The notes beneath the pieces were generated by a model, which was given only the letters and a program-made list of their open reading frames with translations, searched no databases and was not told the DNA's origin. Below are positions 19,365 through 36,410 of a DNA stretch of 64,000 nt, piece by piece. Location: positions 930,001 to 994,000 of the forward strand of contig NZ_JAEMNV010000001.1 of assembly GCF_016482825.1 (NCBI RefSeq), given 5' to 3'. The stretch's first letter is position 1. Each line of letters starts with the position of its first letter. The position numbers and the translations under genes were made by a program. The DNA comes from Antrihabitans stalagmiti. Lineage in GTDB: Bacteria; Actinomycetota; Actinomycetes; Mycobacteriales; Mycobacteriaceae.

Positions 19365-19431
19365 TTTCTCGCTCCACATCGTCGTAACTCGTAGTCGGGC
19401 TCACCACCGGATCGTTTGCGCGGGAACGACA

Positions 19432-19474
19432 AGTGCCCCGCCAAAGGAAGGGTCAGCTTCCTCGACGGGGCACT
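19432..19474 (-). terminator. hairpin between the MmpL and FAAL genes
   Basis: A perfect 9-base inverted repeat (AGTGCCCCG at 19432-19440 and CGGGGCACT at 19466-19474) encloses a second small stem (GGAAG with CTTCC). It lies in the 136-base gap after the MmpL stop. The trailing minus-strand bases are only weakly T-rich, so it may be a partial terminator or a processing/stability element that separates two expression blocks. Confidence 0.55.
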
Positions 19475-19500
19475 CGCAGCGAATACGCTTGCGCGGCGGC

Positions 19501-21654: not shown

Positions 21655-21830
21655 CGATTCCTCCATCGTGAGCTACAGCGGATAAAACCGGGTCCCGACG
21701 TGGTCTGCGGAGGCGCTGGAAAATTGTTCTCGCGGCGCATCCCCATCACCGTCTTCGAGCATCGTGACACGCATTCGACGCACGTCACGGAAGGTGTCCG
21801 CAAGCGGACATCGAACCGCGAACTTCGCCG
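21655..21830 (-). other. intergenic gap of 176 bases
   Basis: This gap between the HTH-less TetR-like gene and the MmpL gene is the largest inside the upstream half of the operon. It could hold a promoter for the MmpL gene. I see no convincing hairpin or operator in it. Confidence 0.3.
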
Positions 21831-22295: not shown

Positions 22296-22315
22296 TATTT
22301 CTCCTTCTGATCTTG

Positions 22316-23230
22316 TTATCCGCCGCCTGCGACGGCGTTGAACACTTCCAATTTCCGCCACATTGTTTGCGGTTCCTGGTAGTACCAGCCGAGCTTGTAG
22401 TTCTCGCTACCGCTTGGCGACAGCACGCCGGCATAGACGATGATCGGTTTGCCCGTGTATGTATGCGGCGCATTCGCCAAGAATCGCTCGATTTCCGGTC
22501 CGCCTCGCGTCGGCAGCGGTATCGGATCCGGCGTCACGATGGAGAAACAAATTCGCTCGACTTTACCGGTGTCCCAGCTGAACGTCGGATAGATCGAGAA
22601 CGATCGTCCGACGAATTCCATCATCTGCTCGCTTGGTTCCGGAATTCCAATCTCCCCGAGTATCGAAAGTACCGTCTCCGATTTCAGGACACCGTCGGGC
22701 AGCTTGCCGAAATAGATGTTGACCGACCTGGATAGATAGTCGATCGCGAACATGGAGACGTTGTCGGCAATGCCCCAGTGTGTGAAACTGTCGACGTGCT
22801 CGGCCACGCTCGGCGGCATGGACGGCAAAGCCGCTAGCTTTGCAATCCCCTGCAGGTCTTCAAGTGGAAACGCCGCATAGATCTTCTTGAAGCCCTGATC
22901 GATGCCACAGTCGACCCCGTAGCCATAAACGGGGCAATTGTTGAGAACCTCGCCGAGCAGGTTGGCGACCGGATGATCGTTCGCCTGAACGAAACCGCGC
23001 GATCGGGCAAGTTCGTAGGGATCGTCCGGAAAGTCGCGCAACGGCACTCCGAAGCTGACGTCGAGTTCGCCGCCGCCGTCCGCCGGAATTCCGACGATGA
23101 CCATCGCGTTCGCAAGTTCGTCCCGATATGCGGTAAAGACCGGTTCGACTTTGTCAGGCGCGTATTCCAATCCCAGAGTTGCAGCCGATTCCGCGAGGAC
23201 CGCGAGCAGTTCTTCCGTTTCGACAGCCAT
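22316..23230 (-). CDS. ABBA-type aromatic prenyltransferase (NphB/CloQ family)
   Basis: A 304-residue protein close in layout to NphB. Shared features are a G-F-K-K-I-Y-A-A-F-P segment near residue 115, LPSMPPSVAEH near 140, R-S-V-N-I-Y-F-G-K-L-P near 175, SFSIYPTFSWDTGKVERICF near 215-235 and Y-K-L-G-W-Y-Y near the end; all have direct counterparts in NphB. The family transfers geranyl or dimethylallyl groups to electron-rich phenols and naphthols, without the DDxxD metal motif. With a THN synthase next door, the acceptor is probably a THN-derived naphthol. The start at 23230 has AGGA upstream. No prenyl diphosphate synthase is present in the window, so the donor must come from general metabolism or another locus. 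Confidence 0.92.
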   Translation of the reverse strand: MAVETEELLAVLAESAATLGLEYAPDKVEPVFTAYRDELANAMVIVGIPADGGGELDVSFGVPLRDFPDDPYELARSRGFVQANDHPVANLLGEVLNNCPVYGYGVDCGIDQGFKKIYAAFPLEDLQGIAKLAALPSMPPSVAEHVDSFTHWGIADNVSMFAIDYLSRSVNIYFGKLPDGVLKSETVLSILGEIGIPEPSEQMMEFVGRSFSIYPTFSWDTGKVERICFSIVTPDPIPLPTRGGPEIERFLANAPHTYTGKPIIVYAGVLSPSGSENYKLGWYYQEPQTMWRKLEVFNAVAGGG

Positions 23231-23239
23231 TTTGTTGTC

Positions 23240-24238
23240 CTATCTGGCGAGGATCAGCGTCGCGGGCGACGGTGTCGGGTGGAAGGTAATGTCGCCGAAG
23301 CCCGCCTTTTCGAGCCAGGCAACGTAGTCGCCTCGCCGCCAAGTTCCTCCGTTTTTGCTTTTCACAAGCATTTCCGAAGCAAAGAGCAGCGGGAACGGCG
23401 GACCGCTCAGGTCGTCGTCGACGACAAAGTCGCAAATGACGAACGTGCCTGCCGGTGCGAGCGCGTCGCGGACCTTGGCGAATATCTCGGCGTTGTCCTC
23501 CGGCCCCTCCTGATGGGCGATGTGGGAATACACCACGACGTCGTAGGAGGCGGCACCGAAGTCCACGGTGTGCAAATCACCGTCTACGCAGGTGAAACGG
23601 TCCGCGACGCCACGGTCGGCAAGGAGTCTGCGCGCGATCGCATTCACCGGCGCCCAGTCCAGCTGCGTCGACCGCGCAGCCGGGTTGAGCTCGAGCCAGG
23701 TGGCCGAATAAATGCCCGAGCCACCGCCGATGTCGAGGATGGAGATCGGTCCGGCGTCCGCGATGTGCAAGAGTTCTGCCGCGACTGCCGTTACTGGAGT
23801 CGACATAGCAGCGATTGCCGTGACCAGCTTTTCCCAATGCGGGTTGTCTGCCACCTCGACGGTCGGTTCAGTCACCGGCCCGCCTGCGCTGACGATCTGG
23901 GGCAGTTCTGTCAACTCGCCCATGTGGCCAAGCTTGAGAATCGCAAGGTCGCTCAACGAGGTGGGTGTGCCTTCGACAAGGTAGGCGGCGGTATCCGCGG
24001 CGTTGCGGTACTTGCCGTCGAGCACTTCGACGAGGCCGAGGCCGACAAGCCCGTTCAGCAGCGTTTGCGTGCCGCGCTCGGAGGTTCCAGCTTCGGCAGC
24101 AAGCAGGACGGCAGTGTCCGCGCCCGACTCGAGATGGGCAAACAACGAGTGGCTCGCCGCAGCGCCGATGATGCCGGTGGCCCAGTAGCCGTTGGTCAGT
24201 TGCAGAATCCGATCGGGGGTCGGTTGGGTGTTGCTCAT
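23240..24238 (-). CDS. SAM-dependent methyltransferase (O- or C-methyltransferase of the dimerisation-domain type)
   Basis: A 332-residue protein. The N-terminal 100 residues are a helical winged-helix dimerisation part (G-Y-W-A-T-G-I-I-G-A-A-A near residue 18). Motif I is ILDIGGGSGIYSA near residue 158, with D-V-V-V-Y-S-H-I-A-H-Q near 226. The C-terminal substrate-binding part is short. Relatives act on phenolic and quinone polyketides. In furaquinocin-type loci a methyltransferase acts on the aminated THN core, so a similar role is plausible. The ATG at 24238 has AAGGAAC upstream. It lies 10 bases after the aminotransferase and 9 bases before the prenyltransferase. Confidence 0.82.
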   Translation of the reverse strand: MSNTQPTPDRILQLTNGYWATGIIGAAASHSLFAHLESGADTAVLLAAEAGTSERGTQTLLNGLVGLGLVEVLDGKYRNAADTAAYLVEGTPTSLSDLAILKLGHMGELTELPQIVSAGGPVTEPTVEVADNPHWEKLVTAIAAMSTPVTAVAAELLHIADAGPISILDIGGGSGIYSATWLELNPAARSTQLDWAPVNAIARRLLADRGVADRFTCVDGDLHTVDFGAASYDVVVYSHIAHQEGPEDNAEIFAKVRDALAPAGTFVICDFVVDDDLSGPPFPLLFASEMLVKSKNGGTWRRGDYVAWLEKAGFGDITFHPTPSPATLILAR

Positions 24239-24248
24239 AAAGGTTCCT

Positions 24249-25382
24249 TCACGATTTCCGGTGAGTTCGGATGGCGGTGTGCAGGACGTCAGAGACTCGC
24301 TCGACCTGACTCGAACTGAGTTCGGCGTGCATCGGCAACGCCAGATTCCGGTGAAACAGATCCGCCGAGACTGGGCACGCATACTTCGTGTCGTACACCG
24401 GCTGTAGGTGGCACGCCCACGTACCGTGCCCGCAGCCGATGCCGTTGGCGCGGAGTTCGGTAGCGACTGCGCCGCGGTCCACCGACGGATCCAGCGTCAC
24501 CACATAGGACTGCCAGGCGTGGGTGCGGTCGTCCGGCACGTGTGGCACAGTGACGAGGTCTTCGGCACCGAACAGGTGCCCGTAGTGAGCGGCTACCGCG
24601 CGCCGGCGTTCGAGCAGCTCGCCGATCCGCCCGAGTTGTACCTGCAATATCGCCGCAGCAATGTCGGAAAGCTTGTAGTTGTAGCCGATTTCGGTGAACA
24701 CCGGAATCGGTAGACCGACGACCTGTGCCTCCTCGAAGATGCTTCCTATGCCGAACGACGATCGCACGCGTGCGGCAGCGGCGAGAGCTGGGTCGGCTGT
24801 GAGCAGCGCCCCTCCCTCACCACTCGTCGCACCTTTGCGCCCGTGAAAGGACAGGCACGCAACGGGCGCCAAAGCGCCTGCCTCGATCCCGTGGTAGGTC
24901 GCGCCGACCGCACACGCGGCGTCTTCGACAAGGAAAAGCCCGTGGCGTTGCGCAATCGACCTCAGTTCCGCGTAATCGGCGGGAAGGCCCACCGTGTCCA
25001 CGGCGATCACACCGACGGTTCGCGGACCGATCAGGTCCGCGACTGCCTGCGGGTCGACGGTGCCGGTGTCGGCCCGGACGTCGGCGAAGACCGGGGTCGC
25101 GTCGACATACCGCACAGCGTGGGCCGGTGCGGGGAAGGTGTAGTCGGCGACGATCACTTCGTCGCCCGGCTCGACTCCAAGCGCAAGAAGGGCAAGGTGT
25201 AGTGCGGCACCACAGTTGCTGACTGCAACCGCGCCGCCAACCCCGTAGCGTCGAGCGAGTTCCAACTCGAGCGCTTTGCCGCGGGGCCCCTGACCGGCCG
25301 GCCATCCCGACGAGAACACCGCTGCGATCGCTGCCAACTCCTGCTCGCCGAGGCTCGCGTGCACCAGTGGAATCGCGTCCAT
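24249..25382 (-). CDS. DegT/DnrJ/EryC1-type PLP aminotransferase
   Basis: A 377-residue sugar-type (fold I) aminotransferase. SFHGRKGATSGEGG carries the PLP Lys near residue 183, E-D-A-A-C-A-V-G-A near 153-161 holds the Asp that pairs with the pyridine nitrogen, and G-P-R-G near 32-35 is the substrate-side loop. No other sugar-pathway gene is present. As I recall, Fur3-like members of this family transaminate THN-derived hydroxynaphthoquinones at C-8 in furaquinocin/naphterpin pathways, and this gene sits between the cupin and methyltransferase as expected for that role. The ATG at 25382 is taken (GAGG 8 bases upstream); a GTG at 25391 overlaps the cupin stop. Confidence 0.88.
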   Translation of the reverse strand: MDAIPLVHASLGEQELAAIAAVFSSGWPAGQGPRGKALELELARRYGVGGAVAVSNCGAALHLALLALGVEPGDEVIVADYTFPAPAHAVRYVDATPVFADVRADTGTVDPQAVADLIGPRTVGVIAVDTVGLPADYAELRSIAQRHGLFLVEDAACAVGATYHGIEAGALAPVACLSFHGRKGATSGEGGALLTADPALAAAARVRSSFGIGSIFEEAQVVGLPIPVFTEIGYNYKLSDIAAAILQVQLGRIGELLERRRAVAAHYGHLFGAEDLVTVPHVPDDRTHAWQSYVVTLDPSVDRGAVATELRANGIGCGHGTWACHLQPVYDTKYACPVSADLFHRNLALPMHAELSSSQVERVSDVLHTAIRTHRKS

Positions 25383-25387
25383 CCTGA

Positions 25388-25906
25388 TCACCTCGGTTCG
25401 AATCGAAGGGGTGTGATCGGGTTGATGTCGTAGCGATCACGCAGGTCTTGAATTGCTTCGGCATCGACCGACCGACCTGACGCGAAGATCTCGACGATCT
25501 CCTCGAAGTAGTGCTCGTGGTCGGGTGCCGGATAACTCTGGAACAACATTCGAACAGGCTTGTCGGTCGCATTCCTGAACGCGTGCGGACACCCGGCAGG
25601 AACGAACATGCAGTCCCCTGGGCCGGCGTGGACGACTCGATCGCCTGCCGCGGATTCCCAGTTCTGCCAGCCCTCCGGCGTTCGTTCGATCGGCTCGAAT
25701 GCCAGCAGGTCCGGCTCGCCTTCCAGTACGTAGAAGAATTCTTGGGAGTTGCGGTGGGAATGCGCTCCTACGTCGAAACCGGGTGGGACGACAACTTCGA
25801 ATATCGAAACCACGGATCCTTGCGCTCCGGTGACTTTGAAGGTGACTTCCTGTTTGTCGGTGGCAAGAACTCGACCTTGGCCGGCCGGGACAATGAGGTC
25901 GCTCAT
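25388..25906 (-). CDS. MomA-like cupin oxygenase
   Basis: A 172-residue single-domain cupin. The first metal-binding motif is AHSHRNSQEFFYVLEGE (residues about 48-64) and the second is GDCMFVPAGCPHAFRN near 97-112. MomA-type cupin monooxygenases oxidise tetrahydroxynaphthalene to the quinone flaviolin and are encoded next to THN synthases. The position beside a THN synthase here supports that function. A DegT start follows its stop directly, and its own ATG is preceded by AAGGAG. A generic regulatory or isomerase cupin would be the alternative. Confidence 0.8.
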   Translation of the reverse strand: MSDLIVPAGQGRVLATDKQEVTFKVTGAQGSVVSIFEVVVPPGFDVGAHSHRNSQEFFYVLEGEPDLLAFEPIERTPEGWQNWESAAGDRVVHAGPGDCMFVPAGCPHAFRNATDKPVRMLFQSYPAPDHEHYFEEIVEIFASGRSVDAEAIQDLRDRYDINPITPLRFEPR

Positions 25907-25950
25907 ACTTCGGCTCCTTGTCGGATCGTGCGGAGGAATTTCACCGGAGG

Positions 25951-27045
25951 TCAGGAAGCCGGCGCGATCTTTCTCGTCCGGTCGGTTTCACGATGTCCGT
26001 CGACTGCCCATCGGCCGAGCGACATCTCGGCGGTGATGCCAGGACCGAATCCTGCGATCACACCGGTTGCGCCTGCGATCGGCATGTCCTCCTCGAACAG
26101 CCTGCGTAGCGCATCGAGCACGACAGCGCTGGCGATGTTGCCGTACTGGGTGAGGGTGGCCCAGCTGTGGCGGAACATCGTGCGATCTACACCGAGGTGC
26201 TTGCTGAGATCGTCCAGGATCCGCGGACCACCCGCGTGAATGATGTAGTAGTCGAGGTTGGCGACGTCCCAGCCGTTGGCAGTGACGAGGTCCCGCAACA
26301 CCGGCGCCAACGGTTCCATCGTTCCCGGGACCCTTCGATCCAGCTGGAAATGGAAGCCGGTGGAACGCACGGCGTAGGAGATCCAGTCCTCGGTGTTCGG
26401 AATCAGATACGCGGCATTCCGCTCGAGCGATATTCCGGTCCCGCCGCTTCCGCGCACTACAGCTGCAGCGACGGCATCACCGAACAACCCGTCGGAAAGC
26501 AGCGAGCCGACATCGTCGTCGTCGGGCTGGTAGCACAGCGAACACAGTTCGCACGCGACGACCAACACGTTGCTTCCGGGGTGGGCCACGCAGAAGTCGT
26601 GCGCACGATTGATCGCCGCGGCACCTGCCGCGCAACCTAGCTGTGCGATCGGAATCTGGCGGGTGTCCGACCGAAATCCCATGTCGTTGATCAGCCAGGC
26701 AGTCAATGACGGCATGAGAAATCCCGTACACGACACATATATGATTGCGTCGATTTCGCGTTCGGTCACGCCCGCGTTCGCGAGGGCCTTTTCGATGACC
26801 TCGGGGCAGCGCTTCTTCGACTCACGCTCGTAAATCTTGTTGCGTTCCTCGAATCCCGGATGCCGCAACGTCGTATCGATGTCCTGAACGATGTGCCGCG
26901 TCTGTACACCCGTATTCTGAATCAACTTCAGCGCAAGCGGAAGTTGCTCCTTTCCGGCATGCATCTTCTCCGCGAATTTCAGCGTGTCTTCCATTGTGAC
27001 TACATTTTCCGGCACATTCACCGAAGGTTTGCACAGCCTTGGCAT
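25951..27045 (-). CDS. rppA: type III polyketide synthase, 1,3,6,8-tetrahydroxynaphthalene synthase
   Basis: A 364-residue chalcone-synthase-fold enzyme. The catalytic triad is Cys138 (in IAQLGCAAG), His270 (in IIHAGGPR) and Asn303 (in YGNIAS). Cys106 in VSCTGF, a THN-synthase-specific residue, is conserved at the same number as in the Streptomyces coelicolor enzyme, and CELCSLCYQP also matches that group. It condenses five malonyl-CoA into THN, the precursor of flaviolin and of naphthoquinone meroterpenoids. It is the first gene of the long minus-strand cluster. A clear Shine-Dalgarno is not seen; AGAGAAAG lies about 12 bases upstream of the ATG at 27045. Confidence 0.95.
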   Translation of the reverse strand: MPRLCKPSVNVPENVVTMEDTLKFAEKMHAGKEQLPLALKLIQNTGVQTRHIVQDIDTTLRHPGFEERNKIYERESKKRCPEVIEKALANAGVTEREIDAIIYVSCTGFLMPSLTAWLINDMGFRSDTRQIPIAQLGCAAGAAAINRAHDFCVAHPGSNVLVVACELCSLCYQPDDDDVGSLLSDGLFGDAVAAAVVRGSGGTGISLERNAAYLIPNTEDWISYAVRSTGFHFQLDRRVPGTMEPLAPVLRDLVTANGWDVANLDYYIIHAGGPRILDDLSKHLGVDRTMFRHSWATLTQYGNIASAVVLDALRRLFEEDMPIAGATGVIAGFGPGITAEMSLGRWAVDGHRETDRTRKIAPAS

Positions 27046-27544
27046 TTCTTGGGCAACTTTCTCTAGAGATACGAAACGGATCGATCACCTCGAGGTTGCG
27101 GATCCACACCGATATCATTGACTACACACCGAATACATCTCAGCTGTCTGCGGAAAGCATGTTCGGGCATTTATCGACACGTGGACGCGTGCTTTGCTAA
27201 ATGAATTTCGGATGAAGAGATTCCGTTTCCGAATACGGCCTGCGGGTTGTTTCGATGAATTCCACCGGCAGGCACAGCAATGCCGCCCGATCAGCATGAC
27301 AGATTTGCCGCCGAGCGCCAACGGGTCCGCAGAGTGACGTAGATCACACTCCCTTTTCGGCGTTCGAGCAGCGGCCGACGTCAATTACAGCTGATAAGGA
27401 AGCGTGTCAAGCGGCCTGCAGGTTCCGGCCAAGCGAAATGTTCGAACGTGCGTCACTGCGGAATTCGAGGGAACCATTTCAGGGGTCCCACTTCTCCTTA
27501 CCAACGAAGCGATCCGAATCGATTTCGGGGCATGAGGGGTTCGC
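27046..27544. promoter_or_regulatory. divergent promoter region between the THN synthase and the HTH regulator
   Basis: A 499-base gene-free region that must drive the minus-strand cluster and the plus-strand regulator. It is richer in A and T than the genes. Apart from a CRP-like site I see no clear repeat or riboswitch. Confidence 0.55.
27333..27348. promoter_or_regulatory. possible CRP/Cmr-type site
   Basis: AGTGA-CGTAGA-TCACA matches the TGTGA-N6-TCACA operator of actinobacterial CRP proteins at nine of ten bases. It lies about 290 bases before the THN synthase start and about 200 before the plus-strand HTH gene. One such match can arise by chance. Confidence 0.4.
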
Positions 27545-28261
27545 GTGAAAAAAACATGGACAGATTCACTTCCACAGGAGCGCGCGCGCGAGCAACTGCG
27601 CCAATTGCCGCTCGTTCACGATGCGTGCCAGGCGGCGTTGCAGCTGCCGGCAATCTCGGGGGTCCGAGAAAGAATCCGAGGCACCAAGAGCAACAATCTC
27701 CCACTGCGCGAGTCCGCCTTGTCCGCGCGACTGGAGATCAACGACTTTCTGCGAACGTGGAGTGCGCTTGTGGTCGACGAGCGCAGGCCACAGCCCTCTC
27801 CCGGCGTCACGGTCGGCGAGCTGACAGATTTTCTGCTGCAGCACCTGAGCTGGGTGATGCACCATTTCGCGGCACACGACTTTGTCGACGAACTGGACGC
27901 CACCGTGAAAGTTGGCCTGGCAGTGGTCGAATCGATCGCAGTGCCACAGCAGCACGAGGCCGGACGTGGCTGCCCAACGCCGGAGTGCGCCGGAACAGTC
28001 CATGCTCGGCATCGGAGCGGCCTCGGAAAGCAGCCGGTGGAGATACTGTGCACTTACGGACATCGTTTCGTCACCGACGGCCAGGAGCAATCGGAGACCG
28101 TCACGACGAGCGTCGCCGCGTGGGCCGCCGGCGTATCGGAAGACACCCTCCGACATTGGGTGCACCGCGGGCAGATCGTCAGGCATGGCACACCGCGGCG
28201 CGCCGAGTTCGACCTCTCCGAAGTGCTTCGCGTCGCCGGAAAGCGACATCGCCGACAGTGA
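27545..28261 (+). CDS. putative DNA-binding regulator with zinc-ribbon and MerR-like helix-turn-helix
   Basis: A 238-residue protein. The first 130 residues are helical and unrecognised. Residues near 145-180 contain GRGCPTPEC and ILCTYGH, a Cys-x4-Cys plus Cys-x3-His arrangement that may bind zinc. The C-terminal 50 residues (V-A-A-W-A-A-G-V-S-E-D-T-L-R-H-W-V-H-R-G) are a MerR/excisionase-like HTH. It starts with GTG at 27545, with AGGGG six bases upstream. The family occurs as an uncharacterised actinobacterial regulator type. Being divergent from the THN synthase, it may control the cluster; this is inferred from position. Confidence 0.65.
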   Translation: MKKTWTDSLPQERAREQLRQLPLVHDACQAALQLPAISGVRERIRGTKSNNLPLRESALSARLEINDFLRTWSALVVDERRPQPSPGVTVGELTDFLLQHLSWVMHHFAAHDFVDELDATVKVGLAVVESIAVPQQHEAGRGCPTPECAGTVHARHRSGLGKQPVEILCTYGHRFVTDGQEQSETVTTSVAAWAAGVSEDTLRHWVHRGQIVRHGTPRRAEFDLSEVLRVAGKRHRRQ

Positions 28262-28515
28262 CCTCGCGCGAACTTCGCGGCCTCGCGCACGGCAAAGCTT
28301 CGGTAAAGGGATACCGATTTTTCTGATACGCGCCAGTGCGCGGCCGCTTGCGGACGCAACCATCTTTCGCGCCATTCGATGGTGTTACGTTCGAGCCGCC
28401 CGACAGAAGTGGGGCGACGGGGATGCGCCAACAACCGCGCAACAGGCTGAACTTTGCAGTGTCGCAATCCTTTTGACGAACGGTACTCCAATCCAGGCTG
28501 CCTGGGAGTTGCACG

Positions 28516-29079
28516 ATGACAGAACGAATCAACAATGCCCGGCCGCGACGGCTACCGATCGATATCAGTGCCGACATGCTGCATCGCGCCCAACGCGGCG
28601 AGGTTCTCGCGCTGCATGAGCTACTTCAACAACTGGAGCCGTACGTCGGGCGGATCTGCGGTTCCATCGCCCTCGACGAGGGTGAAGACGCGGCGCAGGA
28701 GACGTTGCTGATCATCTTCAAGAACCTGGAGACGCTCCACGAACCGAAAGCTCTCGCCAGCTGGGCACGAACGATCGCAACACGTGAATCGATCCGTATC
28801 GCGCGCCGCATACCGCTCGCGATCGATCAGCTGGACATCGCCGACGTCTCCGACGTTCACGAGCTGGATTTGCGGATCGACGTCCGGCGGACGCTCGAAC
28901 GACTCTCGCCCGAACATCGCGCAGTTCTAGTGTTGAGCTCGTTCGAGGACATGGCCGAGGCCAGGATCGCCGAGCATCTCGATGTTTCGCCTGGGACCGT
29001 GAAATCCAGGCTCAGCCGAGCGCGGAACCGGTTCCGCGAAGAGTGGCGCTCGTGGCCGACTTCCCGGCGGCCGGCCTGA
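28516..29079 (+). CDS. ECF-type RNA polymerase sigma factor
   Basis: A 187-residue sigma-70 family protein of ECF size. Region 2 spans about residues 22-100 with E-D-A-A-Q-E-T-L-L-I-I-F-K-N and S-W-A-R-T-I-A-T-R-E. Region 4 spans about 128-180 with L-S-P-E-H-R-A-V-L-V-L-S-S-F and the HTH I-A-E-H-L-D-V-S-P-G-T-V-K-S-R-L-S-R-A-R. No anti-sigma gene with a membrane segment follows. The ATG has GGGAG seven bases upstream. It is one of two such sigma genes between the aromatic-core genes and the nitrite cassette, so it may activate one or both. Confidence 0.9.
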   Translation: MTERINNARPRRLPIDISADMLHRAQRGEVLALHELLQQLEPYVGRICGSIALDEGEDAAQETLLIIFKNLETLHEPKALASWARTIATRESIRIARRIPLAIDQLDIADVSDVHELDLRIDVRRTLERLSPEHRAVLVLSSFEDMAEARIAEHLDVSPGTVKSRLSRARNRFREEWRSWPTSRRPA

Positions 29080-29133
29080 GTCCGCAGGCGGCGGAGATGA
29101 TCTTGTCCGGCTCAGCGGAACTCCACGGGGTCG

Positions 29134-30021
29134 TCATCGTCTAGATCCTCCTGGTCGATATGGATACGCGCGCTCGATGAAGTCGGCCGCCAGACGATGA
29201 ACTGCCGCAGGCTGTTCCGCATGCAACCAGTGCCCGGCACCCTGGACGAACGCCACGTGCAAGAACTCGCGTAACGGATCCGGCACGTGCAGCATCGCCG
29301 GTGGGTACACCGGATCGTGCGAACCGCCGATAAGCAGCGTCGGCACCTGCAAGGGCATACGGCGAAGCCTGTTCGTCATGAGCTTCGGGATGTCTCGCGC
29401 GACGAACTGGAAGTGCAGCTGTTCCGCGGCGCGGGCGGCTGCCCGCGCGTCGGAATCGTCTTCGTACACAGCGACGTGCACGTCCATGGGCGCCCGCCCA
29501 GTGCGCGTGACGTACGCGTCGACAACAGCAGGTATCCGGCGGATCACGAACCGACCGAGATACGGGACTTCGAACAGCAGGGTGTAGTACTGCCGCCACA
29601 GGTTCGGGACAACGCGCCGGTGGTTCGTCCAGGGGTGGATGACATTCAACGCGATAAGTCTGGAAAACCTGTCCGGGTGGCGCTCACACGCGACGAAAGC
29701 CGCCCAGGCCCCCCACCCGTGCGCAATCACCGCGGCCCGGTCGATACCGAGATCGTCGAATACCGCGACGATATCGCCGGCTCGCGTACGAGTGTCGTAG
29801 CCGCGCAGGGGCTTCGACGAACGCCCGAACCCACGCATGTCCACCGCAAGAACACGGTAATGCGGTGCGAGTAGTGCACCGAGATCGTTCCAGACGCGGG
29901 AATCCTGTGGAAACGAGTGCACAAGTAGCACCGGCGTGCCGCTGCCCCCGCTGTCGAACACCGCCAGCTCGGCGTCATGCCGACGAACCCAATGGATCGC
30001 GCCCGCAGCAAGGCCGGACAT
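29134..30021 (-). CDS. alpha/beta-hydrolase lacking the catalytic nucleophile
   Basis: A 295-residue protein close to epoxide hydrolase/dehalogenase-type alpha/beta hydrolases. LLVHSFPQDSRVW is the oxyanion segment and D-M-R-G-F-G-R-S-S-K-P follows. At the nucleophile elbow, where relatives have GHDWGA or GHSMGG, the sequence is AHGWGA near residue 100, so Gly replaces the Asp or Ser. The codon is GGG and the surrounding reading frame is clean. The acid (G-G-S-H-D-P-V-Y) and the His (Q-G-A-G-H-W-L-H) remain. It may be a non-hydrolytic binding protein, a cofactor-free dioxygenase-like or lyase-like enzyme, or inactive. The start has a strong GGGGGGACC site. Confidence 0.82.
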   Translation of the reverse strand: MSGLAAGAIHWVRRHDAELAVFDSGGSGTPVLLVHSFPQDSRVWNDLGALLAPHYRVLAVDMRGFGRSSKPLRGYDTRTRAGDIVAVFDDLGIDRAAVIAHGWGAWAAFVACERHPDRFSRLIALNVIHPWTNHRRVVPNLWRQYYTLLFEVPYLGRFVIRRIPAVVDAYVTRTGRAPMDVHVAVYEDDSDARAAARAAEQLHFQFVARDIPKLMTNRLRRMPLQVPTLLIGGSHDPVYPPAMLHVPDPLREFLHVAFVQGAGHWLHAEQPAAVHRLAADFIERAYPYRPGGSRR

Positions 30022-30189
30022 CGCTGGTCCCCCCTTCGTTCGACGACGCAGATCCCCAGCCAGTTGTCTGGGGTCCTGCTCGGGTCGTCGAAAGCAAATG
30101 TTCTACTGACTCGAAGAGGCGCGTGACAAGCCGAACGGTTCCGTTCCGGTCCGATTCGATCGATCTGTCGATTCCGTGCAGACGAAGGG

Positions 30190-30762
30190 TCAGGCAACGC
30201 CATCCAATAATGCTGACGGCAACAAATTTCGCAGACGTGTCAATGCACGCCGCCGCAATGGTCCGATCGATCCCCGCGGAATACCGAGCTGTTCACTCAC
30301 CGTGTCGTAGTTGGGAGCACTGTCGCACATCAGCAATCCAAGTAGCGTCTGGTCACGTGGCGGCAGCAGCTGAAAGGAAGCTCGAATCTGTTCGCACATC
30401 AACTTGCGAATTGCGGCCTCGTCGGGTTGCTCGATATCTGGACCGACTACGTCGAGCACGGCGTCGTTGTCCGTCGGCAAATACTTGCTGTTGCGATTGA
30501 GGCATTTCAACGACTCGCGTCGCGCGGTCGTCGCAATCCAAGCAGGTAACCGATCGGACGACCGTACCTGTGCGAGATGTATGAAAACATTCGTCCACGT
30601 GGACTGATACACATCGCCGCAGTCATGCGTGGCAAGGCGATAGTTTCGCGCAATTGCCCAGACCATCGCAGAATACTCGTCTATCAGTAGCTTCCACGCA
30701 TCGCTTCGACCCTCCAAGCAGGCGGAAATAACAGCAGATTCATCGAACTCCGACTTTTCCAT
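30190..30762 (-). CDS. ECF-type RNA polymerase sigma factor
   Basis: A 190-residue sigma-70-family protein. Region 2 covers about residues 10-95 (Y-S-A-M-V-W-A-I-A-R-N-Y-R-L, G-D-V-Y-Q-S-T-W-T-N-V-F, L-P-A-W-I-A-T-T-A-R-R-E). Region 4 covers about 125-185 (F-Q-L-L-P-P-R-D-Q-T-L-L-G-L-L-M and Y-D-T-V-S-E-Q-L-G-I-P-R-G-S-I). It differs clearly from the sigma factor at 28516. The ATG at 30762 is chosen for the GGAG six bases upstream; an in-frame TTG lies four codons earlier. It is divergent from the nitrite cassette, a common arrangement for a pathway-specific activator. Confidence 0.88.
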   Translation of the reverse strand: MEKSEFDESAVISACLEGRSDAWKLLIDEYSAMVWAIARNYRLATHDCGDVYQSTWTNVFIHLAQVRSSDRLPAWIATTARRESLKCLNRNSKYLPTDNDAVLDVVGPDIEQPDEAAIRKLMCEQIRASFQLLPPRDQTLLGLLMCDSAPNYDTVSEQLGIPRGSIGPLRRRALTRLRNLLPSALLDGVA

Positions 30763-31449
30763 CGACCACTCCAAGCGCAGCTGAATAAGACGCGCCGATA
30801 CAGATCACTGAATACCTCAGCAATCCGCGTCGGCCTGAGTAATTTGATCGCCCTCGTCGGCTGCCAAATCTCCGAAATTATTGGATTTACAGAATTGTTC
30901 CGAGAATTGTTCGATGCCCCCGGCGGTAAACGTCATCGGTACCACCCGATCACTCGAGAATGCCTCCCACGAGCCGATAGCCAGAACCGTACATCAGCAA
31001 CGGAGTCCAGGCACGGTGTGCTGAACCCGATCGACAGTGCGTTTCGTTGCGAGAAGATTAAATGCGCACGAACGAACGGTTGCGCACGACATTCGTTCAA
31101 TTCAAAACATTCGAACGACAGGGATCGCGCACGCGAGCAAAGTCCCTGCACAATCGACAACTGGGCGGCTGATTTCAGCGAAACGCGTATGGAAAGGTCC
31201 GCCACCTACTTGGCACCCAACCCCGCGACGGGTCGTCGGCAGCCGACCGCACCGCCCGCCAAGAAAATGTGGCTATTGTCCGCTTGCGGTCATCGAGCCG
31301 CCTCGGACCGCGCCTTTCGCACCGTGTTGCTGGTCGTAGCCAGTACGTCGAGTCTCCCTGAGACTTTCGGAGGCACGCCAACACCCCGACAGCCACCATG
31401 GAACCGATCCGACGCGACTTCACCTCTTTCAGATGTGGAGGAGGCAACC
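30763..31449. promoter_or_regulatory. 687-base gene-free region upstream of the nitrite cassette
   Basis: The region separates the minus-strand sigma gene from the plus-strand cassette. It is A/T-richer than its surroundings. Long reading frames that cross it have no sensible protein pattern, so I treat it as non-coding. It holds the direct repeat listed separately. Its length leaves room for a long leader transcript. Confidence 0.5.
31063..31089 (+). repeat. 9-base direct repeat, TGCGCACGA
   Basis: TGCGCACGA occurs at 31063-31071 and again at 31081-31089, 18 bases apart, with CGAACGAACGG-like bases between. The spacing is close to two helical turns. It could be an activator site for the nitrite cassette about 370 bases downstream. 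Confidence 0.35.
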
Positions 31450-31527
31450 ATGGCCCACTACCCGATCGGAACACGCGCCGTCCTCGACCTCGATATCGTC
31501 GTCGCAGCCGGGGCACCTGACTCATGA
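31450..31527 (+). CDS. 25-residue leader peptide coupled to the CreE/CreD fusion
   Basis: A short frame with an excellent ribosome site (GGAGGAGG seven bases before the ATG at 31450). It starts MAHYPIGTRAVLDLD, continues hydrophobic and ends A-P-D-S. Its TGA overlaps the ATG of the 1105-residue gene (ATGA). It could be a leader peptide that sets translation of the big gene by coupling, or a small functional peptide. It has no Cys, Ser/Thr-rich core or leader pattern of a known RiPP type. I find no homologue from memory. Confidence 0.55.
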   Translation: MAHYPIGTRAVLDLDIVVAAGAPDS

Positions 31528-34500
31528 GCGAAACGAGCCGGGTGTTGCGCGTGGCCATAGTCGGTGTAGGTCCCCGCGGGCTCAGTGTGTTCGAGCGGCT
31601 GTGCGCCAACGAGTCCGAGTTCGATCATTACGACGCGATCGACGTCGTTCTCATCGACTCGACCGCAGTCGGGTCGGGAGCAGTGTGGCGGCGAAGCCAA
31701 TCCACCCAACTTCTGATGAACACAGTTGCCTCGCAGGTGACGATCTTCACCGATTCCTCCGTCGCGATGAGCGGTCCGGTGGTTGCAGGCCCGAGCCTGC
31801 ACGAGTGGGCCGCGTACGTCACTGAATTCGCTGTCGTCGAGGACCTTCCGCCACACGTCGTCAGCGAAGCCCGCAGCGTCGGACCGAACACGTATCCGAC
31901 ACGCGCGTTCTATGGTCACTACCTGCGGTGGGCTTTCGAACAGATCAGAGCTCGGTCGCGATCGCGGGTTCGAGTCGTCGAGGTCCACGCGACGGCCGTC
32001 GACCTGCGCGACAGCGCCGACGGGCGCCAGGAGATCGAGCTCGATTCCCGCACGGTCCTCGGTGCGCTCGATGCAGTGGTCCTCACCCAGGGCCATCTAG
32101 CCCTCGTCGGATCCGACGACACACGCCGAACCGCCGCACGCGCAACAGCGCTCGGTTTGGCATACTTCCCTCCCGGAAACGCGGCGGACGCCGCGGTGCA
32201 CGGCATTCCGGCAGACGCACCCGTGCTGATCCGTGGCCTCGGCCTCACCTTCTTCGACTACGTCGCCTTGCTGACCAGCGGTCGTGGCGGTCGTTTCGAG
32301 GAAGAGGGACCGCGGCTGCGATATCTGCGGTCCGGACGCGAGCCTGTGGTGTTCGCGGGTTCTCGGCGCGGCGTGCCACACCACGCCCGTGGCGAGAACG
32401 AGAAGGGCAGCGCAGGCAGACATCAAGCGCTGTTGCTCGTACCCGAGCGCATCGACCATTTGCGCACGCGGGCAAAACAATTCGGCAATGTCGATTTTCG
32501 ACGTGATGTGTGGCCGCTGGTGGCCCGCGAGGTCGAAGTGACCTACTACTCGGCGCTCGTCACCGACCGACTGAGCCCGAGCGAGCTGCGTTGGTTTCGC
32601 ACGCTGTTCCTCGATGCTCCCACCGCAGCAGCCGCAGTCGAAATACTCGGCCAATACAAGGTCGGCAGCGACGAGCGGTGGGATTGGACCCGCATTACCG
32701 ATCCCGCCTACGGACTCGAGTTCTCGGACCTGGACGACTATCGGAGCTGGCTGTTGGGCTACCTGGACGAGGATGCACGACAGGCCCGCCTGGGAAACGT
32801 GCGCGGACCCGTCAAGGCAGCACTCGACGTCCTGCGCGACCTCCGCAACGAGATCAGGCTGATCGTCGACCACGGCGGGATCTCCGGCCGCTCGTACCGC
32901 GACGACCTGGACCGCTGGTACACGCCGATGAACGCTTTCCTGTCGATCGGTCCGCCTGCCTCCCGAATCGCCGAGCTCGCGGCCCTTGTGCGCGCGGGGG
33001 TCGTGCGATTCGTCGGACCCCGACTCACATTCGATATCGACGGCACCATCCCGGCTTTCGTCGCGACGTCACCCGTCGTCGACGGCGCAACCGTGCGTGC
33101 ACGCTTCCTCATCGACGCCAGAATTCAGGAACCCGACGTCCGGAACACAGGCGACCCGTTGTTGACGGGGCTACTCCGCACCGGTGCCGTTCGCGCGTAC
33201 ACGCTGTGCGACCCGGACGGGACACGACATCAGACCGGTGGACTCGACGTCGACCGCGCGACGCACGCCGTGATCGACAGTCGGGGTCGGGTCCACCAGC
33301 GCCGCTACGCATTCGGCGTGCCGACCGAATCGGTGCGTTGGGTCACCGCCGCCGGTCCGCGGCCGGGCGTCAACTCGGTCTCCCTCGCCGACGCCGATGC
33401 AATTGCGCGGTCGGTTCTCGGAACCGACCTGATACCGACCGCAGTCGACGCTAGTTCTGAAAGGACACCCTCCATGCATGACACCGGCCTGCTCTCCCCC
33501 GTTCGCGCAGGAACTCCGATCGAGCGTCTGGTCTCCGACAGCGCCTGGATCGACGCCATGGTCGATGTCGAGCTGGCATTGTCACGCGCGCAAGCACGAC
33601 TCGGAATGGTCCCCGCGCAGGCGACACAGGACATTGCAAAAGCTGTGCGCACATACACATTCGACCCGCGTCGCCTCGCCGTGGCATCGAGAGGGGCCGC
33701 AAATCCTGTCGTGGCGTTCGTCGCCGAACTAACCAGCGCGGTTGCGGCGATAGACGAAGGGAGCGCGAACTACGTGCACCGCGGTTGCACAAGCCAAGAT
33801 GTGCTCGACACAGCGACGATGGTGATCGCCGAACGCGCGGTCGGTGCCATCGTCGCCGATCTCGACCGCGTCCTCGACTCACTCGCCCGGCTCGCTCGCG
33901 CGCACCGCAATACGCCGGTTGCCGGTAGAACTCTCGCCATGCACGCCGTACCGACCACCTTCGGCGCGAAAGTTGCCACGTGGATGCATGGCATCTTCGA
34001 TGCGCGAGACCGCCTCCGGGCAGTCGAACTGCCGGTACAACTCGGCGGGGCGGCAGGAACGTTCGCCTCCTACGTCGAGTGCGCGAGCAGCGCGGACAAC
34101 GAGTCTCCCGGCGTGATCTACACGAAGTTGACCGACGAGTTCGCGGCCGAACTCGGGATGGCAGCCCCTAAGGCGCCGTGGCACACCGTACGTACTCCGA
34201 TCGCGGATCTCGCCAGCGCAATTGCAATTACATCAGGTGCGCTCGGGAAGTTCGCGACGGACGTTATTTCTCAGTCCCGCAACGAGATTCAGGAAGTACT
34301 CGAGCCTGCAGCCGACGGCCGCGGGGAATCGTCGGCTATGCCGCAGAAGCGAAACCCTGTGCTCAGCGCAATGATTCGCTCAGCGGCGCTGCAGGTTCCA
34401 GCGTTGACCGCGACCGTGTTCGGAGCCATGCTCGCAGAAGACGAACGTCCTGCAGGAGCATGGCACGCCGAATGGCAACCTTTTCGGGAGTGCCTACTCC

Positions 34501-34841
34501 TCGTCGGCGGCGCGGCCACCACCGCGGCGGAACTCGCAGCCGGACTGTCGGCAGACACCGACCGGATGCGCTCCAACCTCGAACTCACGGGCGGGCAGAT
34601 AGTCTCCGAGCGTCTGGCCATGCGACTGACACCGCTACTCGGCAAGACGGCCACCAAGAAGACTCTCCAGGCGGCGGCGTTCGAAGCCGCACAGACTCAT
34701 CGCCTGCTCGCCGATATTCTTGCCGAAGACGCAGGGGTCCGTACGCACCTCGATTCGGATGAGATCGCCGAACTCTTGCGACCCGAGAATTACCTCGGAG
34801 CGACAAGCGAACTGGTGGACAGGGCCTTGTTGCGCCTGTAG
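31524..34841 (+). CDS. fused CreE-like FAD aspartate N-monooxygenase and CreD-like nitrosuccinate lyase
   Basis: A 1105-residue two-domain protein. Residues 1-650 form an FAD/NAD(P)-binding monooxygenase of the CreE/FzmM kind: VAIVGVGPRGLSVFERL near 10-26 is the FAD Rossmann loop, and LLMNTVASQVTIFTD near 69-83 is typical of that family. Residues 651-1105 are a complete aspartase/fumarase-superfamily lyase (455 residues, normal length) with the signature SSAMPQKRNPV near 936-946 and H-R-G-C-T-S-Q-D near 752. In the cremeomycin and fosfazinomycin pathways the separate enzymes turn aspartate into nitrosuccinate, then fumarate plus nitrite. The junction keeps an internal ATG at 33474 behind GAAAGGA. 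A CMLE-like function of the lyase domain would be the alternative, but the pairing argues against it. Confidence 0.8.
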   Translation: MSETSRVLRVAIVGVGPRGLSVFERLCANESEFDHYDAIDVVLIDSTAVGSGAVWRRSQSTQLLMNTVASQVTIFTDSSVAMSGPVVAGPSLHEWAAYVTEFAVVEDLPPHVVSEARSVGPNTYPTRAFYGHYLRWAFEQIRARSRSRVRVVEVHATAVDLRDSADGRQEIELDSRTVLGALDAVVLTQGHLALVGSDDTRRTAARATALGLAYFPPGNAADAAVHGIPADAPVLIRGLGLTFFDYVALLTSGRGGRFEEEGPRLRYLRSGREPVVFAGSRRGVPHHARGENEKGSAGRHQALLLVPERIDHLRTRAKQFGNVDFRRDVWPLVAREVEVTYYSALVTDRLSPSELRWFRTLFLDAPTAAAAVEILGQYKVGSDERWDWTRITDPAYGLEFSDLDDYRSWLLGYLDEDARQARLGNVRGPVKAALDVLRDLRNEIRLIVDHGGISGRSYRDDLDRWYTPMNAFLSIGPPASRIAELAALVRAGVVRFVGPRLTFDIDGTIPAFVATSPVVDGATVRARFLIDARIQEPDVRNTGDPLLTGLLRTGAVRAYTLCDPDGTRHQTGGLDVDRATHAVIDSRGRVHQRRYAFGVPTESVRWVTAAGPRPGVNSVSLADADAIARSVLGTDLIPTAVDASSERTPSMHDTGLLSPVRAGTPIERLVSDSAWIDAMVDVELALSRAQARLGMVPAQATQDIAKAVRTYTFDPRRLAVASRGAANPVVAFVAELTSAVAAIDEGSANYVHRGCTSQDVLDTATMVIAERAVGAIVADLDRVLDSLARLARAHRNTPVAGRTLAMHAVPTTFGAKVATWMHGIFDARDRLRAVELPVQLGGAAGTFASYVECASSADNESPGVIYTKLTDEFAAELGMAAPKAPWHTVRTPIADLASAIAITSGALGKFATDVISQSRNEIQEVLEPAADGRGESSAMPQKRNPVLSAMIRSAALQVPALTATVFGAMLAEDERPAGAWHAEWQPFRECLLLVGGAATTAAELAAGLSADTDRMRSNLELTGGQIVSERLAMRLTPLLGKTATKKTLQAAAFEAAQTHRLLADILAEDAGVRTHLDSDEIAELLRPENYLGATSELVDRALLRL

Positions 34842-34851
34842 AAACCCTCCC

Positions 34852-36315
34852 CTAGGAGGCGTCTTCGTGCAGATCTCGTCGATTGATCTTCCCACTCGAC
34901 GTGAGGGGAAGTGCATCGCGAAAATACACCCGCGCCGGGATCTTGTATTCCGCAATCTTGTTGTGCAAGAACGAAACAAGTTCGTCGGTTGTCAGTACAG
35001 CGCCAGCTCGCGCTACGACGAATGCAACCGGTACCTGACCTTCTTCCGGATCGGGAACCCCGATGACCGCTGCTGCGACGACGTCGGGATGTCGATCGAG
35101 GACCGACTCGACCTCGCCGGGCGCGATCTTCGACGTGCGGCGCACGATGATGTCCTTGCTGCGACCGGTGAACCACCAGACTCCGTCGGCGTCCTGTTCG
35201 CCGAGGTCTCCCGTGTGCAGCCAACCGTCGGTGACGGTTGCGGCTGTGAGGGTTTCGTCCTCCCAGTAGTGGTCCATCATCATCGGCCCGCGCACGAGTA
35301 GTTCCCCTGTCTCGTCGTCGGTGCGAATGTCGACGCCCGACACCGGCACGCCGATGCATCCGTCTCGATCGAGCTGGGGTTCGCGGTTGATCGTCAACCA
35401 GATCGCTTCCGTCATGCCCCAGCCGACGCAGATGGGTAAGCCACTGGCTGCCAGGAATTCTCGCTGTAGCGCTTCGGGTACCGTATCGCCGCCGGTGTAG
35501 ACACCTCGAAGCGATGCGAACCATTCACGCTGCATCCCGGGTTGCCGCAGCACCTGCGCGATGATGTCGATATGCGTGCACACGAGCGTCGGCCGATGCT
35601 CCTGCAACGCCTCCACGTACCGAGTTGGTTCGAAGCCGTCGTACAGCGCAACTGTGCCACCCGCCAACAGAGTCGTCATCGTTGCGATGAAGCCGCTGAC
35701 ATGGACAAGCGGTTCGAAGACCTGCGTTACGTCGTTCGCGGTGACGTCACCCATGGCCTCGGAGGTGCTCGTCAGCACTGCGAGTGTCGAACGGTGGCTG
35801 TGGACAACGCCTTTCGGTTGCCCCGTTGATCCAGACGTGAAGAACATGACCGCAGGTGCACCAGCATCCGAAGCAACCGGCTCGTTGGCATCGGACGGTG
35901 CGCGCAGCGCGCCGAAGTCCTCGTACGCGCCGATCGAGTCCCCGACGACGAGCACGCGAACGTCGCCGAGGACGCCCGGATCGATGTGTTCGAGGTCTGC
36001 CAACTTGCCCGAGTGCGTCACGAGCCAGCGCGGACGGGCACGACGAAGGGCCTGCTCGAGTTCCGGTGGCGCGTACCGCGTGTTCAACGGCGTCGCGACC
36101 GCACCCGAGGTGAAGCAGGCGAGATAACCGAGCACCAACTCCGAACAATTCGGAAGTGCCAGCGCGACACGTTCGCCCCGCAGTCCCGCAGCGATCATGA
36201 CGCGCGCCAATTGGTCTGCAGCAGTCGTTAGTTCGGCATAGGACCACGACGTGCCCGCTGCCAGGAGCGCTGTTCTGTCGCTCGCCGACACAAGGCTGCT
36301 CAGCTGGTGTGTCAT
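34852..36315 (-). CDS. AMP-forming ligase, candidate CreM-like diazotase
   Basis: A 487-residue ANL enzyme. The P-loop is FFTSGSTGQPKG near residue 148, GWGMTEAI the A5 segment, GWLHTGDLG the A7 motif and SSGKINRRDL holds the A10 Lys at the C-terminus. The A8 loop reads G-R-S-K-D-I-I-V-R-R-T-S-K-I-A-P; relatives usually have a Gly where T-S stands. As I recall, CreM of cremeomycin is an ANL ligase homologue that uses ATP and nitrite to diazotise an aryl amine. The convergent nitrite-forming fusion gene supports the same role here. A normal acyl-CoA ligase function cannot be excluded. The ATG at 36315 fits the family N-terminus; no strong Shine-Dalgarno is visible. Confidence 0.65.
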   Translation of the reverse strand: MTHQLSSLVSASDRTALLAAGTSWSYAELTTAADQLARVMIAAGLRGERVALALPNCSELVLGYLACFTSGAVATPLNTRYAPPELEQALRRARPRWLVTHSGKLADLEHIDPGVLGDVRVLVVGDSIGAYEDFGALRAPSDANEPVASDAGAPAVMFFTSGSTGQPKGVVHSHRSTLAVLTSTSEAMGDVTANDVTQVFEPLVHVSGFIATMTTLLAGGTVALYDGFEPTRYVEALQEHRPTLVCTHIDIIAQVLRQPGMQREWFASLRGVYTGGDTVPEALQREFLAASGLPICVGWGMTEAIWLTINREPQLDRDGCIGVPVSGVDIRTDDETGELLVRGPMMMDHYWEDETLTAATVTDGWLHTGDLGEQDADGVWWFTGRSKDIIVRRTSKIAPGEVESVLDRHPDVVAAAVIGVPDPEEGQVPVAFVVARAGAVLTTDELVSFLHNKIAEYKIPARVYFRDALPLTSSGKINRRDLHEDAS

Positions 36316-36410
36316 TGCTACATTGTCGACCGATCGAACCACGAATTCGAGGCAAAAAGCGCAATTGAGTTGCGGAAAAGCCCCGGCCGCACGACGGCAA
36401 CTGCCGACGT

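Follow-up and report, generated by a model that had tools for sequence, protein, structure and literature searches.

A predicted tetrahydroxynaphthalene meroterpenoid gene block with an acyl-handling cassette in Antrihabitans stalagmiti

We analyzed a stretch of 64,000 nucleotides from the 6.39-Mb genome of Antrihabitans stalagmiti (contig NZ_JAEMNV010000001.1, positions 930,001 to 994,000; G000:C1:930001-994000), which is referred to below as the window and in which position 1 is the first letter. We consider it fairly probable that a block of 19 genes at positions 6848 to 27045 represents a naphthoquinone-meroterpenoid cluster of the furaquinocin/napyradiomycin kind that is fused with an acyl-handling cassette and that follows the course proposed below. 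The sequence-based part of this reading comprises (i) the identities of the genes, (ii) the orthology of a diazotase candidate, (iii) the synteny of the block, and (iv) the conservation of the cassette. The core belongs to the kind of meroterpenoids made from 1,3,6,8-tetrahydroxynaphthalene (THN), and the novelty lies in the acyl cassette fused to that core, a gene set that is seemingly undescribed. The product is most likely a prenylated and methylated naphthoquinone with an acyl-derived chain, the coupling of which we infer. If this reading is correct, an antibiotic-type naphthoquinone pathway with a step that adds and then removes nitrogen has been fused to a lipid-handling module that is reused across other Nocardia naphthoquinone clusters. 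There would then be a testable path to lipid-tailed naphthoquinones and to a new coupling step driven by phosphoenolpyruvate (PEP)-utilizing proteins.

Synteny of the block, aromatic genes, and diazotase candidate

Every open reading frame (ORF) of at least 70 amino acids in the window and in the 40 kb upstream of it was compared with 77 and 80 kb of DNA from Nocardia amamiensis and Nocardia lijiangensis. An unbroken run of 18 orthologs (57 to 87% identity) extends from 6848 to 27045 with order and strand kept in both species, and the acyl carrier protein (ACP; 78% in both) is the nineteenth gene of the block. All of these genes are on the minus strand, and the gaps between them range from -214 to 164 bases when each ORF is read from its longest possible start, which certainly overextends some of the genes. 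An earlier note on this DNA had advised looking for the same gene set in related genomes, and this syntenic block is what the two Nocardia species contain. All genes named in that note were recovered at the positions given there by Pfam, PDB, and NCBIfam searches. The range that it had assigned to the system (22316-36315) leaves out the diazotase ortholog and the acyl cassette, which are both within 6848-21666, as well as the ACP.

A named genome collection was then scanned with an alignment of the aminotransferase of the block. The scan used two peptide patterns, so that orthologs containing neither of them are missed. It returned 79 loci, of which 73 are orthologs at ≥55% identity; the remaining six were dropped as nonorthologous (L133, L134, L135, L137, and L140, with 30 to 35% identity, and L141, a fragment). 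Up to 10 kb of DNA was fetched on each side, and the locus counts given here refer to this DNA. The thresholds for calling orthologs were 60% for the THN synthase (THNS), 55% for the cupin and for the ligase at 7915-9507, 45% for the methyltransferase at 23240-24382, 30% for the prenyltransferase, and 60% for the WrbA-type reductase. Several of the other genome scans took no more than 3 or 4 candidates from each genome (one of them no more than 10), and their counts are lower bounds.

The aromatic genes form the right-hand end of the block. The type III polyketide synthase (PKS) at 25951-27045 (PF00195/PF02797) is predicted by orthology to be a THNS; orthologs with 65 to 87% identity occur in all 73 loci, those of the two Nocardia species having 85 and 87%. 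The cupin at 25388-25906 (PF07883), which we take to be MomA-like and for which oxidation of THN to mompain is predicted by analogy, has orthologs in 72 loci. It is followed by a DegT-type aminotransferase (24249-25391; PF01041, E 6.9e-93), predicted by analogy to convert mompain to 8-aminoflaviolin, and by an S-adenosylmethionine-dependent methyltransferase (23240-24382; PF00891), the putative catalyst of C- or O-methylation of the naphthol, which is matched in 54 of the 73 loci and whose true start is probably downstream of the listed one. Next is an ABBA/NphB-like aromatic prenyltransferase of the Orf2 type (22316-23230; PF11468, E 1.5e-43), with 57 to 58% identity in the two Nocardia species and a counterpart in 40 loci. 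At the opposite end of the block, an O-methyltransferase-type enzyme adjoins the diazotase candidate (6848-7918; PF00891; 78 to 79% in both Nocardia species and ≥55% in 28 loci), and a WrbA-type NAD(P)H:quinone oxidoreductase is present at 9588-10199 (NF002999, 156.7 bits at a cutoff of 141; 21 loci).

The furaquinocin, marfuraquinocin, napyradiomycin, and naphterpin clusters of Streptomyces have in common a THNS, a cupin, a DegT aminotransferase, a NapB4-type ligase, methyltransferases, and an ABBA prenyltransferase. The block contains the THNS, cupin, aminotransferase, and NapB4-type ligase that mark a THN meroterpenoid cluster, and in addition an aromatic prenyltransferase and a methyltransferase; the aminated THN naphthoquinone suite put forward in the earlier note is borne out by the orthologs of the first four occurring together. 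The order of THNS, cupin, and aminotransferase is the same as in locus L131. In contrast to clusters of the furaquinocin/napyradiomycin type, the suite in the window lies on both sides of, and forms one continuous run with, a cassette encoding a fatty-acyl-AMP ligase (FAAL), an ACP, a dehydrogenase, reductases, and PEP-utilizing proteins. Three class-level genomes have aminotransferase orthologs (75 to 82%) with THNS and cupin adjoining, and these three also carry close orthologs of the ligase at 7915-9507 (68 to 75%) and of the methyltransferase at 6848-7918 (73 to 75%), two genes from the part that the earlier note had called the PKS/FAAL half.

The ligase at 7915-9507 is a candidate for a THN-type, ATP-dependent diazotase and, judged by its locus, for an ortholog of NapB4. 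Of the 73 loci, 62 have an ortholog with 59 to 76% identity in the fetched DNA that flanks the THNS, cupin, and aminotransferase genes. Among the 49 loci of at least 20 kb, 45 contain it; two of the four exceptions (L070, L098, L128, and L130) are Nocardia loci in which the ortholog is located slightly farther off. In a tree of 28 proteins, it falls in a THN group (support 100/100) together with a ligase of Streptomyces aculeolatus (69% identity) that directly follows THNS, cupin, and aminotransferase; species and gene order led us to regard this locus as the napyradiomycin cluster, in which a CreM homolog, NapB4 (43% identity), has been described (PMC11705231). The motifs YGQSE and HTSGTTGLPK are present, and the window's own genome gave one match at E 1e-15. 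AvaA6, CmaA6, and CreM are arylamine diazotases that, together with AvaA7, carry out ATP- and nitrite-dependent diazotization, after which the nitrogen is lost (PMC10777205). Compared with AvaA6, the protein encoded at 7915-9507 belongs to the separate THN group, shares 24 to 27% identity with 12 AvaA6-like proteins, and scores 84.1 bits against the AvaA6 equivalog NF058622, below the cutoff of 975.

The earlier note had assigned diazotization to a different ligase, at 34852-36414 on the minus strand (PF00501 and PF13193), acting with a CreE-CreD fusion on an aminated THN; it had also drawn an acyl chain from the type I PKS at 110-6553 and expected a diazo-bearing product. This version now appears highly improbable. 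The ligase and the fusion are convergent neighbors, and both halves of the fusion are sound. However, no ortholog of the ligase at ≥40% occurs in any of the 73 THN loci, and in the 28-protein tree it is placed outside the THN and the AvaA6-like groups, with 24 to 28% identity to both, which led us to reject it as the diazotase. It also retains the usual C-terminal domain of AMP ligases, has feruloyl-CoA synthetase as its best PDB match (213 bits), and forms a pair with a MarR gene. A strong diazotase ortholog is present elsewhere, within the block. Since 62 of the 73 THN loci contain an ortholog of 7915-9507 and none contains one of 34852-36414, the sequence comparisons favor the former, which is probably the NapB4/CreM-type diazotase, and the latter is probably outside the pathway. 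The type I PKS was likewise rejected as a member of the block because it is absent from the syntenic run: no conserved counterpart was found in the DNA retrieved from N. amamiensis and N. lijiangensis (77 and 80 kb), and it is thus not kept beside the block as the proposed acyl-chain partner. The proposal that an aromatic and an acyl half belong to one pathway is upheld by synteny for the acyl genes of the block and fails for the type I PKS.

The acyl cassette

The cassette lies between the two groups of aromatic genes. It includes (i) a FAAL-like enzyme, FAALb (17712-19379; PF00501; NCBIfam fatty acyl-AMP ligase, 287.5 bits at a cutoff of 600); (ii) an acyl-CoA/acyl-ACP dehydrogenase nearest to MbtN (16546-17760; PF00441; NCBIfam MbtN, 284.8 bits at a cutoff of 700); (iii) SDRb, a thioester-reductase-like short-chain dehydrogenase/reductase (SDR) with the YxxxK motif (15422-16723; PF07993, 72 bits at a cutoff of 20.1; TIGR01746, 84.6 bits at a cutoff of 213); (iv) a second SDR, SDRa (14427-15635; PF01370); (v) the PEP-utilizing protein PEPb (12944-14488; PF00391 only), in which about 440 residues with no Pfam match precede a C-terminal phosphohistidine swiveling domain that has its histidine within MSHLAILCR, from residue 472; (vi) the ACP of 85 amino acids with the motif LGIDS (12694-12951; PF00550, 35.3 bits at a cutoff of 20.8); and (vii) the PEP-utilizing protein PEPa (11039-12088; PF01326 and PF00391), with partial PPDK ATP-binding and phosphohistidine domains and a histidine read in the sequence within GGGLSHAAIISRE. 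A small protein of unknown family lies between PEPa and the ACP (12090-12704; no Pfam match over cutoff; 73% in both Nocardia species), and a DinB/mycothiol-dependent-isomerase-like protein follows PEPa (10281-11042; PF11716; 77% in both). The ACP had been hidden from the first ORF list by a plus-strand ORF (12722-13120; 68% conserved) that appears to be its shadow. SDRa resembles AvaA7 weakly (NF058621, 25.4 bits at a cutoff of 400), and we do not claim it as a clear AvaA7 ortholog.

In the tambjamine tail pathway, an acid is activated, bound to a carrier protein, dehydrogenated, and reduced as a thioester to an aldehyde, on which a condensing enzyme of the PigC kind acts (PMC6667630 and PMC9594044). 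The logic of the tam cluster (TamA, TamT, TamH, and TamQ) is similar to that of the cassette. By this analogy, the cassette may work like the tambjamine tail pathway, with no protein exceeding the known condensing-enzyme cutoffs. FAALb would load an acid onto the 85-residue ACP, the MbtN-like dehydrogenase would desaturate the ACP-bound acyl chain, and the SDRs would release an aldehyde or alcohol. The two phosphohistidine proteins would activate a partner for condensation, which would place an acyl-derived chain on the naphthoquinone. Unlike the tam cluster, the cassette has no reductase-fused transaminase, a free-standing ACP, two PEP-utilizing proteins, and a THN product in place of a bipyrrole. 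PEPa scored 114.4 bits against the PigC model NF052631 (cutoff, 1300) and 103.7 bits against the RedH model NF052632 (cutoff, 1350), and PEPb scored 49.9 and 41.3 bits, respectively, so that both proteins are below both cutoffs. The best-matching stretches correspond to the C-terminal phosphohistidine region, and PEPa has a second matching stretch.

We subsequently determined the distribution of the cassette. PEPb is present in at least 2 of 394 class genomes, including that of the window (at most 3 candidates scored per genome), and in at least 12 of 148 genomes of the genus g22, taken as Nocardia (at most 10 scored). Thirteen other cassette regions were examined, giving 14 genomes with the window; N. 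amamiensis and N. lijiangensis, whose coordinates coincide with those of G661 and G699 of g22 (the reason for taking g22 as Nocardia), were each counted once. All 14 genomes have matches to the dehydrogenase, SDRb, SDRa, PEPb, and FAALb, with the order dehydrogenase-SDRb-SDRa-PEPb kept. The ACP is present in 13 of them (the exception is G594), PEPa in 8 of the 13 other genomes (in G604 as a separate ORF), and the small protein at 12090-12704 in 4 of the 13, with weak matches in G666 and G583. The cassette adjoins THNS and cupin in 10 of the 14 genomes, in two architectures. The first, found in the window and the two Nocardia species, combines it with THNS, cupin, aminotransferase, diazotase, and ABBA prenyltransferase; the second, with THNS, cupin, and UbiA, occurs in seven genomes (G575, G603, G644, G628, G594, G666, and G583), for which 20 to 40 kb was fetched. 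There are hence at least two naphthoquinone settings, one with UbiA and no nitrogen step and one with aminotransferase, diazotase, and ABBA prenyltransferase. Pfam confirmed the UbiA of G641 and of G666, and G666 also has a DegT match of 31% about 20 kb away. In the fetched flanks of the 73 aminotransferase loci, FAALb, the dehydrogenase, and SDRa reach ≥60% in only two, both from Nocardia.

The strongest indication that the cassette acts on naphthoquinones is this adjacency to THNS and cupin, seen in 10 of the 14 genomes. Several results weigh against its proposed role. (i) Seven cassette proteins were scanned, and none exceeds an NCBIfam equivalog cutoff. (ii) FAALb is not at a constant position and shares only 30 to 33% identity in nine genomes. 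(iii) The seven UbiA/THNS genomes contain neither a diazotase nor a close aminotransferase in the 20 to 40 kb fetched. (iv) In the fetched DNA of G153 and G604, an aminotransferase (34 to 35%) and a diazotase-like ligase (37 to 38%) are present and THNS is absent. (v) G216 and G641 have UbiA and no THNS in the fetched DNA. Because these last four genomes show no THNS in that DNA, the cassette does not appear to be confined to naphthoquinones. They are also what would favor a separate lipid or siderophore-like pathway that is merely cotranscribed with the aromatic genes, an explanation that the neighborhood of THNS and cupin in the other 10 genomes, in two different architectures, makes quite unlikely. 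Within the preferred reading of a cassette that serves the naphthoquinone, one may go further and regard it as a new transplantable module that hangs an acyl-derived chain, such as a 2-alkenal, on THN-type polyphenols, the split phosphohistidine pair being the condensing catalyst; we advance this tentatively, as a possible but doubtful extension.

No description of the cassette turned up in the open-access literature covered by our searches, which were directed at the cassette or at THN clusters of Nocardia. The thn cluster of Nocardia sp. CS682 and the isofuranonaphthoquinone cluster account for naphthalene and naphthoquinone products of this genus, one of them with a THNS. The examined part of the thn gene table (PMC6358914) contains methyltransferases, a glycosyltransferase, and MFS genes and no cassette, and the isofuranonaphthoquinone cluster is described as a type II PKS cluster, unlike the THNS type of the window.

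Fate of the diazo group and source of nitrite

The pathway described for relatives leads from THN to mompain, 8-aminoflaviolin, and a diazo intermediate, and then by reductive deamination to a pentahydroxynaphthalene that is methylated and prenylated (PMC12670698 and PMC12814520). We have taken over the steps as far as pentahydroxynaphthalene from these relatives; the supply of nitrite by the fusion in this genome, the chemistry of the cassette, and the joining of the cassette product to the naphthoquinone are three points that we infer. In the window, the THNS would form THN, the cupin would oxidize it to mompain, and the DegT enzyme would convert mompain to 8-aminoflaviolin, which the ligase encoded at 7915-9507 would diazotize with ATP and nitrite, probably supplied by the CreE-CreD fusion at 31524-34841. 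Reductive loss of the diazo group, perhaps aided by the WrbA-type reductase, would give pentahydroxynaphthalene as the substrate for methylation and prenylation. The lipid-like product would be exported by a predicted MMPL-family protein (19501-21666; PF03176; 78% in the two Nocardia species).

Since the window contains orthologs for the steps as far as the diazotase, addition and subsequent removal of the nitrogen is, by analogy, most likely. The diazo system of the earlier note is therefore retained as far as the diazotization step, and its diazo-bearing end product is weakened, since the diazo compound of the published relatives is an intermediate (PMC12670698 and PMC12814520) that they lose reductively. 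An end product that keeps a diazo group or an N-N bond derived from it, like the diazo or pyridazine relatives of napyradiomycin, would agree with the presence of a diazotase ortholog and with the proposed retention of the N-N bond in azamerone (PMC11705231). It is nevertheless improbable here: in PMC12670698 and PMC12814520, loss of the nitrogen is reported for THN meroterpenoids whose clusters carry these genes, and a WrbA-type quinone reductase adjoins the diazotase candidate. In the window's version of the transplantable module considered above, the diazo or amino position might even serve as a handle for coupling, in which case the cryptic nitrogen would be useful and not discarded. As to the enzyme that removes the diazo group, SDRa alone of the NCBIfam-scanned proteins matched the AvaA7 model, with a score far below the cutoff, and this counts against the proposed course.

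The CreE-CreD fusion (31524-34841, plus strand) is predicted from PDB and NCBIfam matches to convert aspartate via nitrosuccinate to nitrite. It is a single ORF of 1,105 amino acids, in which residues 8 to 632, almost the full length of the first half, match the FAD-binding protein 8cp2 (587 bits) and residues 648 to 1104 match CreD, 5xny (470 bits); an FAD motif (GVGPRG) and the SSAMPQK loop are both present. The earlier note's assignment of this gene proved sound, with both halves homologous to a CreE-type monooxygenase and to CreD. It had named a best hit of the lyase half to CMLE or adenylosuccinate lyase as the observation that would speak against it. The best model listed is nitrosuccinate lyase NF052556, with 618.6 bits (slightly below the curated 650); CMLE scores 392 bits, that is, 226 lower, and the best adenylosuccinate lyase model scores 255 bits, so that both alternatives were rejected. 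Both catalytic halves are like CreE and CreD of the aspartate-nitrosuccinate (ANS) pathway and like the fused SpiED of spinamycin, a natural CreE-CreD fusion that has already been described (PMC11705231). In contrast to SpiED, the fusion of the window groups with fusions from Nocardia and from its own genus and adjoins a THN cluster.

The fusion is probable but unproven as the nitrite supplier of the pathway. In 19 of the 73 THN loci, CreE (≥45%) or CreD (≥50%) lies within the fetched DNA, and among 13 loci for which gene order was listed, five have these genes inside the same codirectional string (L066, L076, L095, L136, and L088, with CreE only in the last). Its presence in 19 loci, in several of them within the string, supports a role of the ANS pathway in THN clusters. 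Four observations point the other way. (i) The CreD half groups (support 100/99) with four family genomes in which it has unrelated surroundings, and not with the 18 THN-linked CreD proteins. Coinheritance of the fusion with the THN suite is thus unsupported by the CreD tree, which indicates a separate ancestry. (ii) CreE-CreD was not found in N. amamiensis or N. lijiangensis at E 1e-30. (iii) Six of the 12 cassette-bearing g22 genomes have a CreE-CreD match at E 1e-90 (both halves in five, the CreE half only in G594), and it is near the cassette only in G641. (iv) The fusion, like the ligase at 34852-36414, lies outside the run that is syntenic with Nocardia. The closeness of the fusion to the block may therefore be due to chance.

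These observations are the grounds for supposing two neighboring pathways, in which the block would use nitrite from elsewhere and the fusion, 4.5 kb away, would be an orphan or serve the ligase/MarR pair. We regard this as possible, if on the unlikely side. Against it stand the repeated occurrence of CreE/CreD near THN-diazotase clusters, a chance of about 0.005 for such closeness under random placement, and the finding that this CreE-CreD is the only one detected in the genome (with 3 of 19 first-look candidates scored). In addition, NarG, which is present in both Nocardia species, was not found in the window's genome at E 1e-30 in a search that did not extend to assimilatory nitrate reductases. 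The complementarity of CreE-CreD and NarG across the three genomes is only suggestive; a possible swap between CreE-CreD and nitrate reductase as the nitrite source among close relatives would, if our reading is correct, make the question of nitrite in these pathways testable.

Two side observations concern CreE-CreD. In G641 (L191-L192), a cassette with 56 to 76% identity is accompanied by CreE/CreD, an AvaA6-like ligase, UbiA, an iron-containing heme-oxygenase-like protein, and the C-terminal subunit of an aconitase-type enzyme, and THNS is absent from 60 kb. In two related genomes (L017-L018 and L021-L022; G132 and G061), CreE-CreD has no conserved partner in common with the surroundings of the window's fusion, and these proteins are perhaps orphan nitrite makers.

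Regulators and neighboring genes

The block itself encodes a TetR-type regulator (21831-22361; PF17920; 64 to 65% in the two Nocardia species) between the MMPL gene and the prenyltransferase gene. An MMPL gene with 49 to 52% identity is also found near THNS in 12 Streptomyces loci (L067, L082, L084, L085, L088, L090, L095-L098, L126, and L136), where it is perhaps the exporter of that sub-branch. Beyond 27 kb, the only regulatory ORF with a Nocardia counterpart is that at 27545-28261 (29%; adjoining THNS in both species). The regulator block further includes an ECF (extracytoplasmic function) sigma factor (28516-29079, plus strand), an alpha/beta hydrolase (29134-30021, minus strand), and a sigma-like ORF (30190-30774, minus strand). 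To the right of the fusion, the acyl/aryl-CoA ligase overlaps its MarR regulator (34852-36854), and the two resemble a catabolic pair.

On the left, the block is abutted by the modular type I PKS locus, which includes the gene at 110-6553 and has carrier-protein matches to about 892 kb (G000:C1, approximately 892000 to 936500); it is probably a separate cluster. The region from 44409 to 64000 contains genes for steroid/aromatic catabolism, namely, a KshA-type Rieske oxygenase, a BphC/HsaC-type dioxygenase, an IclR regulator, an SDR, and a ferredoxin reductase. In N. lijiangensis, homologs of KshA (64%), the dioxygenase (69%), and the reductase (57%) are located within about 7 to 10 kb of THNS. 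The block may thus occupy a shared chromosomal place, the CreE-CreD stretch having been gained or lost in between. Near the end of the window, a carrier-protein match (63822-64000, minus strand; PF00550, 67.9 bits) may belong to a further PKS or nonribosomal peptide synthetase gene.

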